A DNA stretch of 64,000 nucleotides from Kitasatospora cinereorecta (GTDB lineage: Bacteria > Actinomycetota > Actinomycetes > Streptomycetales > Streptomycetaceae). Location: assembly GCF_024172095.1 (NCBI RefSeq), contig NZ_JAMZDX010000003.1, positions 1,256,001-1,320,000 of the forward strand. Reading direction: 5' to 3'. A model generated the notes under the pieces. It ran no database searches, had not been told where the DNA came from, and saw only the letters and a program-made list of their open reading frames with translations. Shown here in pieces: positions 7,566 through 23,070 of the stretch. Position 1 is the stretch's first letter, and each line of letters begins with the position of its first letter. The position numbers and the translations under genes are program-made.

Positions 7566-8432
7566 CTACTTGAAGGTGTGCTCCGGCGCCGGGAAGGTCC
7601 CCGCGCTGACGTCGGCCGCGAACTCGCGGGCCGCGTCACCGAGCACGCTCCGCAGGTTGGCGTACTGCTTCACGAACTTCGGCACCCGCCCCGCCGTCAT
7701 CCCGGCGAAGTCGGTCCACACCAGGACCTGGGCGTCGGTGCCGGCGCCCGCGCCGATGCCGACGGTCGGGACGGCCAGCTGCTCGGTGACCTGGGCGGCC
7801 AGCTCGGCCGGCACGGCCTCCAGCACCACCGAGAACGCCCCGGCCTGCTGCACCGCCTTGGCGTCCCGCAGCAGCTGGTGCGCGGCCTCGTCGCCGCGGC
7901 CCTGCACGGGGTACCCGCCGAAGGCGTGCACCGACTGCGGGGTGAGGCCGATGTGCGCCATCACCGGGATGCCGGCCTCGACCAGCAGCTCGATCGAGCG
8001 GGCGCTGCGCTCGCCGCCCTCCAGCTTGACCGCGCCGACCCCGGCCTCCTTCATCAGCCGGGCGGCGTTGTGCATGGCCTGCGCGGGCGACTCCTGGTAC
8101 GAGCCGAACGGCATGTCGCCGACGATCAGGGCGCGCTTGGTGCCGCGGACGACGGCGGCGGAGAGCATCACCATCTGATCCATGGTCACCGGCACGGTGG
8201 TCTCGTAGCCGAGGTGGCAGTTGCCGGCCGAGTCGCCGACCAGCAGCACGGGGATGCCGGCCTCGTCGAACACGCCGGCGGTGAGGGCGTCGTACGCGGT
8301 GAGCATGGCCCACCGCTCGCCGGCCTGCTTGGCCTTCGCGAGGTCGCGCACCGTCACCCGGCGGTTGGTGATGCCGCCGTAGAGGACGGCGCCCTCGGGC
8401 GCCTGGGCAGGCTGAAGCGGAGAAGCGTTCAT
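7566..8432 (-). CDS. panB: 3-methyl-2-oxobutanoate hydroxymethyltransferase
   Basis: PanB uses 5,10-methylene-tetrahydrofolate to hydroxymethylate alpha-ketoisovalerate, giving ketopantoate, the first committed step of pantothenate and CoA synthesis. It is cytoplasmic and needs Mg2+. The sequence shows the family motifs: [20 protein letters not shown], the metal-binding VGDSAGN, KLEGGER and [17 protein letters not shown] 8432 was chosen because AGGAG lies eight bases upstream; the frame stays open to 8495. The resulting 288 residues match the normal size. It is divergent from the MFS exporter and has its own terminator. Confidence 0.95.
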
Positions 8433-17282: not shown

Positions 17283-17311
17283 CCCCGGCTGAGCGGCTCG
17301 TCGTACACGGG

Positions 17312-17356
17312 GAAGGCCCCGGACCAGTGGATCGTCATCACTGGTCCGGGGCCTTC
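17312..17356 (+). terminator. Intrinsic terminator after the glutamine synthetase-like gene
   Basis: An 18-bp perfect inverted repeat (17312-17329 with 17339-17356, 9-nt loop) lies 30 bp after the stop codon and ends in CTT. Confidence 0.88.
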
Positions 17357-17419
17357 TGTCGCACGCGATCGGCTCTGATTGAACGTCAGCCCCTGCCGGG
17401 CGGTAGGACAGTGTGACTA

Positions 17420-18382
17420 GTGGTGGCCGGGCGTGTGGCGGCTTGCAGGGGGTCGGGGCGGGCGCTGAAGTGGCTGCATGATCGGTACGCGGCTGCGCGA
17501 GCGGGAACTGGTTTCGGACGTCGTGGGCGCGGCCGGGTGAGCGGGCGGCGGGGGCGGCGTCCGGAGTCGTGGTGGGGTCGGTGGCGGCCCGGATCGCGAG
17601 GAGGTGCGCCGCGGGCGGGGCGGCGCGGATGGGTGTCGGTGGCGATGGGGGTGACCGGCGAACTGGTCTTCACCCTCGGCCTGGTGCTGGTGCTGTTCGT
17701 CGGCTACTCGCTGTGGTGGACCGACCTGTTGGCGGACCGGCGGGCCGACCGGGCTGGGCAGGAGCTGCGCGGCTCCTGGTCGGTGACGGCCCCGCCGACC
17801 CCGTCGGCGAGCCCCGCGCCCTCGGCCGCGCCGGTGCCGCCGGCCTCGCCTTCGCCCTCGCCGTCCCCGCCGCCGGAGTACCGGACCGGTGACGACGTGG
17901 GCTTCCTGCACGTGCCGGCCATGGGCAGCGACTACCAGGTGCTGATCCGGATGGGAGCGGCGGAGGAGATCATCGACGAGGGCGTCGCGGGCGTGTACAC
18001 CGAGCCGTACCGGGCGGCGATGCCGTGGGACGCGGAGGGGAACTTCGCGCTGGCGGCCCACCGGGACGGGCACGGCGCCAAGTTCCACGACCTCGACGTG
18101 CTCAAGCCGGGGGACGCGCTGGTGGTGGAGACCCGCGGCACCTGGTACGTGTACCGGGTGGACGGCGTGCTGCCGCAGACCTCCAAGTACAACATCGGGG
18201 TGATCGCGCCGGTCCCGGCCGGCTCGCCGTACCAGGGACCGGGCCGGTACATCACCCTGACGACGTGTACGCCGGTCTACACCTCGCGCTACCGGATGGC
18301 GGTCTGGGGCAGCCTGGTGCGGACCGAGCCGGTGGACGCCAACCGGACGCCGCCGGCCGAGCTGACCAGCGGGCACGCGTAG
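17420..18382 (+). CDS. Class E sortase (membrane-bound transpeptidase)
   Basis: This sortase cleaves secreted proteins at an LAxTG-type motif and joins them to the cell wall. After an N-terminal basic region and one membrane helix (ELVFTLGLVLVLFVGYSLWW) comes a Pro/Ser/Ala-rich linker and then the catalytic domain. The active-site His is in LAAHRDG, the Cys in LTTCTPVYTSRYRM with the catalytic Arg a few residues later. The GTG at 17420 has a TAGGA site about 11 bases upstream, but several later GTG/ATG codons before the membrane helix are possible, so the first 75 residues are uncertain. It converges on a small gene encoding an LAATG peptide. Confidence 0.87.
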   Translation: MVAGRVAACRGSGRALKWLHDRYAAARAGTGFGRRGRGRVSGRRGRRPESWWGRWRPGSRGGAPRAGRRGWVSVAMGVTGELVFTLGLVLVLFVGYSLWWTDLLADRRADRAGQELRGSWSVTAPPTPSASPAPSAAPVPPASPSPSPSPPPEYRTGDDVGFLHVPAMGSDYQVLIRMGAAEEIIDEGVAGVYTEPYRAAMPWDAEGNFALAAHRDGHGAKFHDLDVLKPGDALVVETRGTWYVYRVDGVLPQTSKYNIGVIAPVPAGSPYQGPGRYITLTTCTPVYTSRYRMAVWGSLVRTEPVDANRTPPAELTSGHA

Positions 18383-18414
18383 GCGGCCGTCGGGCAGGTC
18401 GGCCCTCGGGCCGG

Positions 18415-18573
18415 TCAGCCGTCGGAGCCGCGCCGACGGGCCACCCGGATCAGCAGCGCGCCGCCGACCAGCATCGCCACGGCCAGGACGACCAGCAGGA
18501 CGACGTGGCCTCCGGTGGCGGCCAGCGCATCGCCGCCTGCTGCGGCGGCGCCGGGAACGGACGGACGGTACAT
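18415..18573 (-). CDS. 52-residue membrane peptide with LAATG sortase motif
   Basis: A short gene encodes an 18-residue Gly/Ala-rich N-terminus, the motif LAATG (residues 17-21), one hydrophobic helix (about 24-43) and a basic tail RVARRRGSDG. This is exactly the tripartite sorting signal of class E sortase substrates, yet there is no signal peptide or passenger domain. A near-ideal ribosome site, GTGGAGG, lies six bases before the ATG, which argues it is a real gene. Positive charges at the C-terminus predict an N-out, C-in topology, so the short N-terminus would face the sortase. Its stop codon is 33 bp from that of the sortase gene. It may be a microprotein substrate, a sortase modulator, or the relic of a larger surface protein. 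Confidence 0.68.
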   Translation of the reverse strand: MYRPSVPGAAAAGGDALAATGGHVVLLVVLAVAMLVGGALLIRVARRRGSDG

Positions 18574-18790
18574 GCGCGGCCTCCACCGGGGACGTGGGCG
18601 ACGGGTGCCGCCGGTACGGAGGATCCACCGCGGCACCGGCCGGTTGTCGCGCCGGGAAGCCGCACCACCCCAATGGGTCCGGCCGATCACCCGGGTGCGT
18701 GAGTGCGGGGGAGTCGCGGCGACGTCGTACCCCGGCGCGGCCCGGGACGGGCACGTAGGCTTCGAACAGGCGACGGAGCTGAAGGGGGAG

Positions 18791-21700
18791 ATGGCAGTGG
18801 AGGAGCGGGCCGGGAGCCGGACGAGCCGGCCGGAGATCAGACTGGTCCGCCGCGGCTTCACCGACCCCGACCAGGCGGTACGGCGGCTGGCCGAACCCGC
18901 GCTGCAGGGGCTGGCTGCCGACCCGGTGCTACTGGACGCGCTCGGTGCCACCGCCGACCCCGACCTCGCGCTGCTCGGCCTGACCCGGCTGCTGGAGGCG
19001 CTCGACCCGCACGAGCGGCACACCCTGCGCGACACCCTCACCGCCTCCAAGCCGCTGCGCGACCGGCTGCTCGGGGTGCTCGGCGCCTCCGCGGCGCTCG
19101 GCGACCACTTGGCCCGCCATCCGCGCGACTGGCACGCCCTGGTCACCTTCGAGCTGCGCGACATGCACCCCGGCCGGGCCGACTTCCTCGGCGAGCTGTC
19201 CCGCCGGGTGTGGGCGGCCGCCGAGCCCGGCGGGGACGCCGTACCGCGTCGCGCGGACGCGCTGCGGCTGGCCTACCGCCGCTGCCTGCTGGCGATCGCC
19301 GCCCGCGACCTGTCCGGCACCACCGACCTGGCCCAGACCGCGGCCGAGCTGGCCGACCTGGCCGGTGCCACCCTGCAGACCGCGCTGGACATCGCCGCCG
19401 ACGAGGACCCCGAGGCGGCCGTCGCCTGCCGGCTGGCGATCATCGGCATGGGCAAGTGCGGCGGCCGGGAGCTCAACTACGTCTCCGACGTGGACGTGAT
19501 CTTCGTCGCCGAGCCGTGCGAGGGCGTCGAGGAGCAGCGCGCGACCCAGGCCGCCACCCGGCTCGCCGCCCGCACCATGCGGCTCTGCTCGGACACCACC
19601 GGCGAGGGCGCCATCTGGCCGGTCGACGCCAACCTGCGCCCCGAGGGCCGCAACGGGCCGCTGGTCCGCACCCTGGCCAGCCACCTCGCCTACTACCAGC
19701 GCTGGGCCAAGACGTGGGAGTTCCAGGCGCTGCTGAAGGCCCGGCCGGTGGCCGGCGACGCCGACCTCGGGGCCGCGTACACCGAGGCGATCGCCCCCCT
19801 GGTGTGGCAGGCCGCCGCGCGGGAGAACTTCGTCCCGGACGTGCAGCAGATGCGCCGCCGGGTGGTGGACGCCATCCCCGTCACCGAACTGGACCGCCAG
19901 CTGAAGCTCGGCCCCGGGGGCTTGCGGGACGTCGAGTTCTCCGTCCAGCTGCTCCAGCTGGTGCACGGCCGCACCGACGAGGCGCTGCGCAGCGCCAACA
20001 CCCTGGAGGCGCTGGCCGCGCTCAGCGCCGGCGGCTACGTCGGCCGGGCCGACGCCGCCTCGCTCGACGCCGCCTACCGCTTCCTGCGCACCCTGGAGCA
20101 CCGGATCCAGCTGCACCGGCTGCGCCGCACCCACCTGATGCCCACCGACCAGGCCGACCAGCGCCGCCTCGCCCGCTCACTGGCCACCCGGATCAACGAC
20201 GACACCCGGGACGACCCGGTCGCCGCGCTGCACCGGGAGTGGAAGCGCCACGCGGTGGAGGTGCGGCGCCTGCACGAGCGGCTGTTCTACCGTCCGCTGC
20301 TGGACGCCGTCGCGGTGCTGCCCGTCGCCGAACTGGAGGTGGCGGAGACCGGGGCCGCCGGGCTGAGCACCGAGGCCGCCCGGGAGCGGCTGGCGGCGCT
20401 CGGCTACGCCGACCCGGCCGCCGCGCTGCGTCACATCTCCGCGCTCGCCTCCGGGGTGAGCCGCAAGGCGGCGATCCAGCGCACCCTGCTGCCGGTCATG
20501 CTCGGCTGGTTCGCCGACTCGGCCGACCCCGACGCCGGACTGCTCAACTTCCGGCAGGTCTCCGACGCGCTCGGCCGCACCCCCTGGTACCTGCGGCTGC
20601 TGCGCGACGAGGGCGCCGCCGCCGAGCAGCTCGCCCGGGTGCTGTCGGCCGGCCGGCTGGCCCCCGACCTGCTGCTGCGGGCCCCCGAGGCGGTCGCCAT
20701 GCTCGGCGACCCGCAGGGACTGGTGCCGCGCGGCCGGGCCGCCCTGGAACAGGAGATCCTGGCCGCCGTCGGCCGGGCCCCCACCGCCGCCGCCGGGGTG
20801 GCGGCCGCCCGCTCGGTCCGCCGCAGGGAGCTGTTCCGCACCAGCGCCGCCGACCTGCTCGGCCGCCTCGCCGACGACCCCGCCGAGGCCCTGGAGACCG
20901 CTGCGGAGGCGCTCACCGCCCTCAACACCGCCACCCTCCAGGGCGCCCTGCGCGCCTCGATCGCCGGCTGGGAGGACCGCAACGGCGAGCTGCCGACCCG
21001 CCTCGCGGTGATCGCCATGGGCCGCTTCGGCGGCCACGAACTCGGCTACGGCTCCGACGCCGACGTGATGTTCGTCCACGAGCCGCTGCTCGGCATGCTC
21101 GACGAGGACGCCGCCAAGGCCGCCCACGCCGTCATCCACGACCTGCGCGCCCTGCTCTCCGCCCCCTCGACCGAACCGCCGCTGCTGGTCGACGCCGACC
21201 TGCGGCCCGAGGGCCGGCAGGGCCCGCTGGTGCGCACCCTCGCCTCGTACGCCGCCTACTACCGCCGCTGGTCGCACGCCTGGGAGAGCCAGGCCCTGCT
21301 GCGCGCCGAGCCGGTGGCCGGGGACGCCGAGCTGGGGGAGCGGTTCCGGGCCCTGATCGACCCGCTGCGCTACCCGGGCACCGGCGTGCCCGAACGCGAC
21401 CTGGTGGAGATCCGCCGGATCAAGGCCCGGATCGAGGCCGAACGGCTGCCCCGCGGCGCCGACCCCACCACCCACACCAAGATCGGCCGCGGCGGACTGG
21501 CCGACGTCGAATGGACGGTGCAGCTCCTGCAGCTGCAGCACGGCCACCTGGTGCCCGCCCTGCGCACCACCCGGACCCGCCAGGCGCTGACCGCCGCCGC
21601 CGACGCCGGGCTGCTCGCCCGGGAGGACGCGGAGGTGCTGGACGCGGCGTGGGTGCTGGCCTCGCGGGTGCGGAGCGCCGTGATGCTGGTCCGCGGCCGC

Positions 21701-21856
21701 CCCGGGGACAGCTTCCCCGGCGAGGCCCGCGAGCTCGCCGGCGTTGCCCGCTACCTCGGTTACGGCGCCGGGCACACGGGGGAACTGGTCGACGACTACC
21801 GCCGCACGACGCGGCGGGCGAGGAAGGTCGTCGAGCGACTCTTCTACGGGTACTGA
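18791..21856 (+). CDS. glnE: Bifunctional glutamine synthetase adenylyltransferase/deadenylylase
   Basis: This protein of about 1021 residues adds AMP to, or removes it from, the regulatory tyrosine of GlnA, lowering or restoring its activity according to nitrogen status. Two homologous nucleotidyltransferase halves are clear: the first with GMGKCGGRELNYVSDVDVIF (about residues 218-237), the second with AMGRFGGHELGYGSDADVMF (about 743-762). Each carries the G-G...DxD metal site, and helical regulatory domains separate them. ATG 18791 directly abuts a GGGGGAG site; GTG 18797 has better spacing and may be the true start. The target GlnA is encoded at 60545-61957. Confidence 0.95.
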   Translation: MAVEERAGSRTSRPEIRLVRRGFTDPDQAVRRLAEPALQGLAADPVLLDALGATADPDLALLGLTRLLEALDPHERHTLRDTLTASKPLRDRLLGVLGASAALGDHLARHPRDWHALVTFELRDMHPGRADFLGELSRRVWAAAEPGGDAVPRRADALRLAYRRCLLAIAARDLSGTTDLAQTAAELADLAGATLQTALDIAADEDPEAAVACRLAIIGMGKCGGRELNYVSDVDVIFVAEPCEGVEEQRATQAATRLAARTMRLCSDTTGEGAIWPVDANLRPEGRNGPLVRTLASHLAYYQRWAKTWEFQALLKARPVAGDADLGAAYTEAIAPLVWQAAARENFVPDVQQMRRRVVDAIPVTELDRQLKLGPGGLRDVEFSVQLLQLVHGRTDEALRSANTLEALAALSAGGYVGRADAASLDAAYRFLRTLEHRIQLHRLRRTHLMPTDQADQRRLARSLATRINDDTRDDPVAALHREWKRHAVEVRRLHERLFYRPLLDAVAVLPVAELEVAETGAAGLSTEAARERLAALGYADPAAALRHISALASGVSRKAAIQRTLLPVMLGWFADSADPDAGLLNFRQVSDALGRTPWYLRLLRDEGAAAEQLARVLSAGRLAPDLLLRAPEAVAMLGDPQGLVPRGRAALEQEILAAVGRAPTAAAGVAAARSVRRRELFRTSAADLLGRLADDPAEALETAAEALTALNTATLQGALRASIAGWEDRNGELPTRLAVIAMGRFGGHELGYGSDADVMFVHEPLLGMLDEDAAKAAHAVIHDLRALLSAPSTEPPLLVDADLRPEGRQGPLVRTLASYAAYYRRWSHAWESQALLRAEPVAGDAELGERFRALIDPLRYPGTGVPERDLVEIRRIKARIEAERLPRGADPTTHTKIGRGGLADVEWTVQLLQLQHGHLVPALRTTRTRQALTAAADAGLLAREDAEVLDAAWVLASRVRSAVMLVRGRPGDSFPGEARELAGVARYLGYGAGHTGELVDDYRRTTRRARKVVERLFYGY

Positions 21857-21945: not shown

Positions 21946-22899
21946 CTATCGGGACGCTTCCACGACCGTCCAGTGCTCCGGCACCGTGAGGTGCTGCTCC
22001 GGCTTCCCCCCGGTAACGCGCGGGAGCTGGTACGCCCACACGTGGTAGAACAGCCGGGCGGCTATGAACCCGACCGCGAGGCAGGCCGCTCCGCCGACCG
22101 CGTCCAGCCAGAAGTGGTTCGCGGTGGAGATGATCACCACCAGGGTGGCCGCCGGGTACGCCAGCCCGAGCGCCCGGACCCAGGTCCGCTGCGCCAGGAA
22201 GAAGATCGTCAACCCGCACCACAGCGACCAGCCGATGTGCATCGACGGCATCGCCGCGTACTGGTTGGAGACGTGCGCGGCTGCCCCGGAGGCCATCGAG
22301 CCCCAGGTGCGATGGACGGTGACGGTGTCGATGAAGTTGCCGCCGGTCATCAGCCGGGGCGGGGCGAGCGGGAAGGAGTAGAACCCGACCAGCGCGATGC
22401 CGGTGGTGACGAAGAGCACGGTGCGGCAGGCGGCGTACCGCCCGGGGTGTCTGCGGTAGAGCCAGACCAGGACGCCGATGGTCACGATGAAGTGCAGCGT
22501 CGCGTAGTAGTAGTTCATCCCCACGATGAGCCAGCCGAACGAGTTCACGGTGTGGTTGACCGCACGCTCGACGTTCACGCCGAGGGTCTGCTCGAAGCTC
22601 CACACCCAGCTCGCGTGGTGCTGGGCGATCACGGCCTGCTCGGGGACGGCGTTGCGGATCAGCGAGTAGATCCAGTAGCTGATGCCGATCAGGGCGAGCT
22701 CGAAGACCAGGTGCGGACGGGCCGGGGTGCGCCGCTGCTCGCGGATGCGGCTGCGGACGGCAGCCGCGGGCGACTGGGCGGCACGGGTGGCTCCGTCCGG
22801 CATCCGGCTCGTGTGGGCCTGGCCTGAGACGGAACCGTCGGTGGGCACACGGTCGGCGCGGTCGGCGCCCGGTGCGTGGATCTCGGTCGGTTCCCCCAT
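21946..22899 (-). CDS. PAP2-superfamily membrane protein (inositol phosphorylceramide synthase-like phosphatase/transferase)
   Basis: This protein of about 317 residues has a disordered N-terminus and about six membrane helices. The acid-phosphatase-type motifs are PLAPPRLM, PSMHIGWSLW (catalytic His) and STANHFWLDAVGG (His-Asp). These define the PAP2 branch related to inositol phosphorylceramide synthases, enzymes acting on lipid phosphates at the outer face of the membrane. ATG 22899 is preceded by a -10-like CAGACT and no ribosome site (leaderless). The frame stays open to another ATG at 23019, giving 40 unconserved residues. The lipid substrate is not evident. Confidence 0.8.
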   Translation of the reverse strand: MGEPTEIHAPGADRADRVPTDGSVSGQAHTSRMPDGATRAAQSPAAAVRSRIREQRRTPARPHLVFELALIGISYWIYSLIRNAVPEQAVIAQHHASWVWSFEQTLGVNVERAVNHTVNSFGWLIVGMNYYYATLHFIVTIGVLVWLYRRHPGRYAACRTVLFVTTGIALVGFYSFPLAPPRLMTGGNFIDTVTVHRTWGSMASGAAAHVSNQYAAMPSMHIGWSLWCGLTIFFLAQRTWVRALGLAYPAATLVVIISTANHFWLDAVGGAACLAVGFIAARLFYHVWAYQLPRVTGGKPEQHLTVPEHWTVVEASR

Positions 22900-23070
22900 A
22901 GCGGAGAAGTCTGCCAGACGTCCCGTGGCCGTCCGATCATCCTGTGGTCGGGGATTCTTCACCGACTGTCCCCCTACGGGGGTAGGGGTCGGTCGACTCT
23001 CGGGGCGCATGAGGTCCATTGTTGCGCGCGGGTAACGGAGGGTCGAACCGGGGTCCCCGGTGACGAGAAA

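Follow-up and report, generated by a model that had tools for sequence, protein, structure and literature searches.

A 52-residue LAATG microprotein beside a class E sortase gene in Kitasatospora cinereorecta: an orphan relative of microproteins encoded next to GT2 polysaccharide synthases

The microprotein gene and its surroundings

The window, a 64,000-nucleotide stretch of the Kitasatospora cinereorecta genome, contains a short gene in the interval between glnA and glnE (Table 1). Translation of the minus strand from 18573 to 18415 yields MYRPSVPGAAAAGGDALAATGGHVVLLVVLAVAMLVGGALLIRVARRRGSDG*, which begins with MYRP. The 52-residue product consists, in order, of an LAATG pentapeptide, a membrane helix with a best 17-residue mean hydropathy of 3.0, and an RRR tail. 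This succession of sorting pentapeptide, hydrophobic span and basic C-terminus is the one by which sortase substrates are generally recognized. A first-pass annotation of the DNA had described the peptide as essentially a sorting signal with a near-perfect ribosome site and with an N-terminus of about 20 residues that lacks a signal peptide, and this description holds. By inspection, no signal peptide is seen, since the 16 residues that precede LAATG contain no hydrophobic segment.

The ORF is a real, conserved gene and not a chance ORF. The window was scanned for short ORFs that combine LAxTG or LPxTG with a hydrophobic span and a basic tail. The 52-residue ORF was the single hit in the 64 kb, and 60 windows simulated with a first-order Markov model gave none, whether or not a Shine-Dalgarno sequence was required. 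Homologues were retrieved using the window protein as a single-sequence query, with E values of 5e-13 (genome G018), 1.4e-12 (G059), 1.4e-9 (G005) and 6.6e-9 (G004). The model for LPXTG-type sorting signals, TIGR01167, scores the protein at 13.8 bits (E 0.072), which is below its cut-off of 15.9 bits.

Table 1. Features of the glnA-glnE interval and its edges in the window
Feature	Position	Strand	Basis and remarks
glnA, glutamine synthetase, 453 aa	15921..17282	+	other edge of the variable interval
Class E sortase ORF	17420..18382	+	GTG 17420 gives the longest ORF; the membrane segment and the catalytic part come after ATG 17645
52-aa LAATG microprotein	18418..18573	-	stop codon 18415-18417; ORF list, translation, homologues
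LAATG motif, residues 17-21	18511..18525	-	translation; L, A, T and G invariant in the 14-member alignment
Shine-Dalgarno GGAGG, 6 nt 5' of ATG	18580..18584	-	sequence; GGAGG also before 8 type 1 homologues
glnE	18791..21856	+	likely start ATG 18791 (longest ORF from 18515); PF03710 309 bits; divergent neighbour, synteny anchor

The gene that faces the microprotein encodes a class E sortase, as had been annotated, with a score of 225 bits against NF033747 (cut-off 160). The stop codons of the two genes are 32 bp apart and not 33 as first given, since 18382 is the last position of the sortase stop and 18415 the nearest position of the microprotein stop. The nearest solved structure is SrtE1 of S. 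coelicolor (5cuw; E 2e-40), and the window sortase retains the residues aligned with His251, Cys320, Arg329 and Tyr229 of that enzyme, the last of which lies in the beta3/beta4 loop. In the excerpted text of PMC5148588, which is the source of this numbering, Tyr229 is proposed to select Ala at P3 and LAxTG is described as the class E sortase signal. The four positions (His, Cys, Arg and the class E Tyr) are kept in all 14 aligned sortases, including that of locus L223, which is partial and covers them. In a sortase tree, one of the 11 inner branches is starred and the window sortase has no firm place, and so it is not claimed that particular sortase clades go with particular microprotein types. 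Elsewhere in the window, at 21946-23019 on the minus strand, lies a multi-spanning membrane ORF that by eye resembles PAP2-type phosphatases.

Microproteins and their partner genes in Kitasatospora

The glnA-glnE interval was surveyed in 70 Kitasatospora genomes, which were searched using the N-terminus of glnE as anchor. The anchor was obtained from 69 of these, the window's own genome included, and the sample comprises the window and 68 other intervals (69 in all). Four loci can only under-report, because the interval of L155 is just 802 bases long and L163, L171 and L189 show no glnA. A short ORF with the build of the microprotein is present in 18 of the 69 intervals: the window and 17 others, whose products are 34-54 residues long. 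The latter are of three types: type 1 (51-54 aa, LAATG) in L122-L129, type 2 (48 aa, LAATG) in L130 and L131, and type 3 (34 aa, MYGLAHTG...) in L147, L156, L158, L162, L167, L171 and L173. The L162 copy escaped the first filter and came to light with a type 3 profile. An eighth type 3 copy, L223, is found on another contig of genome G028, where it is accompanied by a GT2 gene, a GH16-like gene and a sortase gene.

A GT2 polysaccharide synthase gene is present in all 17 other microprotein intervals, and no interval has the GT2 gene without the microprotein (Fisher 3e-15, a value that ignores phylogeny). The two genes adjoin each other directly in 15 of the 17; in L122 and L123 an exosortase gene intervenes. 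Three divergent kinds of GT2 occur in the genus set, one per microprotein type, and the type 1 enzyme of L128 is recognized by NF053846, the XrtP-associated glycosyltransferase model (642 bits, cut-off 520). A GH16-like gene likewise accompanies all 17 microproteins, and L186 holds a GH16-like gene alone. Its protein has no Pfam match and no sequence-level PDB match. The GH16-like label comes from one predicted structure, that of the L130 protein (mean pLDDT 79), for which the best PDB matches found by Foldseek are laminarinases and other GH16 glucanases (E 4e-14). In addition, each of the eight type 1 intervals contains a wecB-like epimerase gene (72-100% identity by tblastn), the L128 copy of which matches TIGR00236 at 277 bits.

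The sortase is a less regular companion. It is found in 13 of the 69 intervals: together with a microprotein in seven (the window, L122, L147, L162, L167, L171 and L173), together with a long LAxTG protein in five (L132, L133, L152, L159 and L188), and with neither of these seen in L149. The first-pass annotation had linked the microprotein to the class E sortase, and this link stands at the level of the locus. A protein with a sorting signal is encoded in 12 of the 13 sortase intervals versus 19 of the 56 others (Fisher 1.4e-4, ignoring phylogeny; the 19 include some LPxTG proteins), a count from which low-complexity or helix-only pattern matches in L131, L157 (minus strand) and L163 were left out. 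The association of sortase with the microprotein alone is weaker (7/13 vs 11/56; p 0.03, again ignoring phylogeny). Direct adjacency is confined to the window within this survey: in none of the 17 other microprotein intervals does a sortase gene adjoin the microprotein gene. Conservation of the short frame in relatives that keep the sortase is mixed, with the microprotein kept in six of the 12 other sortase intervals and missing in six; conversely, a sortase is present in six of the 17 other microprotein intervals.

Two side observations concern the interval. Across L122-L189 it behaves as a hot spot, where polysaccharide cassettes of three kinds are found along with sortases and long LP/LAxTG proteins (for example in L157, L170, L175, L178 and L184). 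At L162:8302-9770, a type 3 cassette has a GT2 gene with an internal deletion and a motif changed from LAHTG to PAHTG, and the GT2 and microprotein genes seem to decay together.

Exosortase genes lie near the GT2 gene in ten distinct loci: L122, L123, L193, L194, L195, L197, L198, L255, L256 and L257. Two of these belong to the 69 genus intervals, and tblastn finds no exosortase in the 15 other GT2-bearing genus intervals or in the window interval. The exo_archaeo signature scores above cut-off in L122, L123, L193, L194, L195 and L197 and below it in L198, and the calls for L255-L257 rest on tblastn. None of the seven exosortases scored reaches the cut-off of XrtP, XrtR or XrtS. The genus copies, at L122:4410-5042 and L123:6911-7543, appear to be of the XrtP/XrtS kind and stand between the microprotein and GT2 genes; L122 also holds a class E sortase. 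At L198:9343-10272, beside an exosortase and a GT2 gene, is encoded a protein of the choice-of-anchor P family whose C-terminus is hydrophobic and basic; it is a candidate exosortase target.

The window copy shares with the GT2-linked MY..LAxTG group its length of no more than about 60 residues, the Tyr at position 2, the LAxTG motif, the helix and the basic tail. It departs from the group in that no GT2 gene lies between glnA and glnE (17283-18790). The stretch 18300-18900 shows no GT2, wecB or GH16-like traces; a GH16-like fragment at 18301-18363 was rejected because it is the end of the sortase gene read on the opposite strand. The genome itself has 17 GT2 domain matches, with 25-36% identity to the cassette GT2s. 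None of these 17 loci has a microprotein-like ORF within 1.5 kb, and no close GT2 relative was found in the genome, where the best match to the type 1 GT2 scores 33.7 bits. As a GT2 partner was found neither in the interval nor elsewhere in the genome, the window gene is called an orphan relative, one that was either retained together with a sortase or stayed behind next to it.

Relatives outside the genus and conserved features

A type 1 GT2 profile, run on a named genome collection, identified 26 loci (L191-L216). By pattern scan, nine of these contain the short ORF: two Kitasatospora loci and seven of the eight loci L193-L200, which belong to Streptomyces, Streptacidiphilus, Micromonospora and Plantactinospora. 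The exception is L195, in which the ORF was not found; in L194 the motif is LAAAG, and the L199 ORF starts at 7627. In L193 and L194 the short ORF is located about 2.5 kb from the GT2 gene, on the opposite strand. The pattern scan found no short ORF in the 16 distant GT2 relatives, L201-L216 (28-39% identity), the majority of which belong to Bipolaricaulota or to other uncultured bacteria or archaea; Frankia and Planotetraspora are also represented, and some of the loci are short contigs.

A profile of 14 microproteins was also run on 394 genomes of the class and gave a match at 1e-4 in 82. Tails of long LAxTG proteins were frequent among the matches; these were excluded for not being short and were used as a control. 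The 29 loci fetched (L246-L274) comprise 16 short ORFs and 13 tails of long ORFs. A GT2 gene lies within 1.5 kb of all 16 short LAxTG ORFs versus none of the 13 long LAxTG proteins, although the class-level matches are not independent of the GT2 link because the search model was built from GT2-linked members. Ten further matches, from the profile or from a search with the NF058583 model (see below), were taken later (L275-L284). Four of them, L275-L278, are short ORFs that also stand beside a GT2 gene, which brings the count to 20 of the 20 short, signal-peptide-less LAxTG ORFs examined; the L276 ORF is known only as a 58-aa frame. No GT2 gene is found beside L279-L284. Of these, L279 represents a longer tail, L283 begins at the edge of a contig, and in L280 and L284 a short LAxTG ORF could not be clearly discerned. 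Of the 29 fetched loci, 16 of them short, L254 alone has a sortase match within 1.5 kb. There, the GT2, microprotein and class E sortase genes follow one another in that order on one strand, a further instance of the class E link at locus level; the 131-aa piece of the sortase that was scored gives 134.7 bits, whereas the cut-off, set for the whole protein, is 160. A small variant group begins with MPY (L253, L261, L271 and L277) or MSY (L278), which places the Tyr at residue 3, and has the motifs LAATG and LAITG. The GT2 proteins of this group are of one kind, NodC-like and below the NodC model cut-off where scored (L253, L261 and L271).

The closest existing model is NF058583, LAXTG_small_WW. 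It matches residues 1-48 of the 52-residue window protein over model positions 1-49 of 54, with 31.8 bits and an E value of 8.1e-8, and the score stays below the cut-off of 65. This match indicates that a related small LAXTG protein has been described by NCBI curators. The relatives L038, L045 and L059, found with the model, also lie beside GT2 genes (read from the frames; the L038 GT2 was later used as a query), a link that the name and description of the model do not state. There is no GT2 gene within 1.5 kb of L047, a 72-aa LAHTG frame that does not start with MY, or of L022, which has no LAxTG. No match above the NF058583 cut-off was obtained in 150 genomes of the family or in 396 of the phylum. 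A literature search of titles and abstract openings found, among the matches listed, no report of such microproteins or of the GT2 link.

Conservation within the family is concentrated in a few residues. In an alignment of 14 diverse members, the only invariant columns are Tyr-2 and the L, A, T and G of LAxTG; the helix and linker diverge widely while LAxTG is kept. A Tyr at residue 2 or 3 is present in all 44 short ORFs gathered, a count that is not independent because this start helped to select the set. Of the 44, 42 have LAxTG (LAFTG in L249), L194 has LAAAG and L162 has PAHTG. In all 44, the net charge is -1 to +1 up to the motif Gly and +2 to +7 in the last 14 residues. The dN/dS values are 0-0.43 for type 3 (median 0.11 of 21 pairs), 0.16 for type 2 and 0-0.15 for type 1a, and because of these low values the family is considered to be under purifying selection. 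For type 1b together with the window copy, the range is 0.36-0.94. Pairs of the window copy with its nearest homologues give 0.36-0.73, so selection on this copy by itself is not proven.

Proposed function and alternatives

As a rule, a sortase substrate is an exported protein with a signal peptide and a domain that is displayed. The proposed family instead consists of signal-peptide-less microproteins of 34-59 residues, each made up of Met-Tyr, a Gly/Ala-rich linker, LAxTG, one membrane helix and a basic tail. The helix would insert with the short, near-neutral N-tail outside and the basic tail inside, a topology to which the charge pattern points; the same pattern, with the order of motif, helix and tail, agrees with the earlier annotation of an N-out sortase substrate. 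A class E sortase would then cut between Thr and Gly and link the N-terminal peptide, which in the window is MYRPSVPGAAAAGGDALAAT, to the cell wall. The family would work with the membrane GT2 polysaccharide synthases encoded beside its genes, and the wall-bound peptide would most likely serve the synthase-made polymer as an anchor, acceptor or assembly factor. On balance, we lean towards this reading of an N-out, sortase E-cut and GT2-linked microprotein, in which the window copy is an orphan that survives with its class E sortase. A more specific version, in which the microprotein would act as a peptide adaptor between the polysaccharide and peptidoglycan, with the glycan perhaps on Tyr-2 and the Thr end joined to the wall by the class E sortase, is a long shot. 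If it were true, a sortase would anchor a capsule-like polymer via a peptide of as few as seven residues (MYGLAHT, type 3).

The first alternative to weigh applies to the window copy alone. It is quite possible, if short of probable, that this copy is a relict without present function, left over when its polysaccharide cassette was lost. The GT2, wecB and GH16-like genes are absent from the interval, where no remnants were found, and a search of the genome revealed no close GT2 relative; the order of sortase (plus strand) and microprotein (minus strand) is, judged from gene order, what would be left of an inverted L122 cassette stripped of its other genes, and the deleted GT2 and PAHTG motif of L162 show that such decay occurs. 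Against this, the start codon, Shine-Dalgarno sequence, frame, LAATG motif, helix and basic tail of the window copy are all intact, and it scores as high as the GT2-bearing members with a model that includes it. We regard as unlikely an IcaD/PgaD-like role, in which the microprotein would be a small membrane-bound part of the GT2 synthase, or its regulator, and LAxTG would be of secondary importance. PgaD/IcaD subunits are small membrane proteins encoded next to GT2 PNAG synthases, which the microproteins resemble in their constant GT2 neighbourhood, very short size and single helix. To our knowledge, however, these subunits carry no sorting motif, and both the retention of LAxTG amid diverging helices and linkers and the existence of the window copy without a GT2 neighbour speak against such a role.

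Processing might also be due to an XrtP/XrtR/XrtS-kind exosortase and not to sortase E. The exosortase genes near GT2 in ten loci favour this idea, and in those loci the exosortase may be the enzyme that actually does the processing. As the principal enzyme an exosortase is nevertheless rather improbable, since the same motif is found in the 15 other GT2-bearing genus intervals and the window interval, where tblastn detects no exosortase; LAxTG is, in the excerpt of PMC5148588, a class E signal; and L198 encodes an exosortase target candidate of its own. The convergent arrangement in the window, with the sortase gene so close, had led to the suggestion that the microprotein is a pseudosubstrate or inhibitor that controls its neighbour. 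This is now very improbable, as GT2 and not sortase adjacency is conserved, and most of the other microprotein intervals have no sortase. It is scarcely credible that the ORF arose by chance or is the broken tail of a longer LAxTG protein. The frame is indeed open upstream, as a 249-aa ORF from the ATG at 19164, but the homologues start at the same MY and have similar lengths, the family is under purifying selection, and the simulated windows yielded no such ORF.

Like the Streptomyces class E substrates, for example the chaplins ChpA, ChpB and ChpC treated in the excerpt of PMC5148588, the microproteins have LAxTG followed by a membrane span and a basic tail. They differ in having neither a signal peptide nor a folded domain; the motif is preceded by 16 residues in the window protein and by just three in the shortest, type 3 members. 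The seven candidate sortase substrates of Actinoplanes missouriensis that are listed in the excerpt of PMC13251363 are all 219-762 aa long, and the short class is therefore missing from that list. The closest working parallel is the PEP-CTERM/exosortase (EpsH) system, in which, according to the excerpted text of PMC1569441, C-terminal sorting tags are likewise tied to exopolysaccharide loci; the match of the type 1 GT2 to the XrtP-associated glycosyltransferase model is a further point in common. This analogy is limited by the LAxTG motif, the Gram-positive host and the lack of an exosortase in most of the loci surveyed, and also by the signal peptide that, in the same excerpt, PEP-CTERM proteins generally have and the microproteins do not.

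The family spans several actinomycete families with only Met-Tyr, a linker and a sorting tag, and its association with several divergent polysaccharide synthases suggests that sortases serve cell-surface polymers and not only proteins. Very short sortase substrates of another kind were observed at L281:1872-2177 and L282:1872-2174; these proteins of about 85 residues have no GT2 neighbour and carry both a signal peptide and an LADTG motif.
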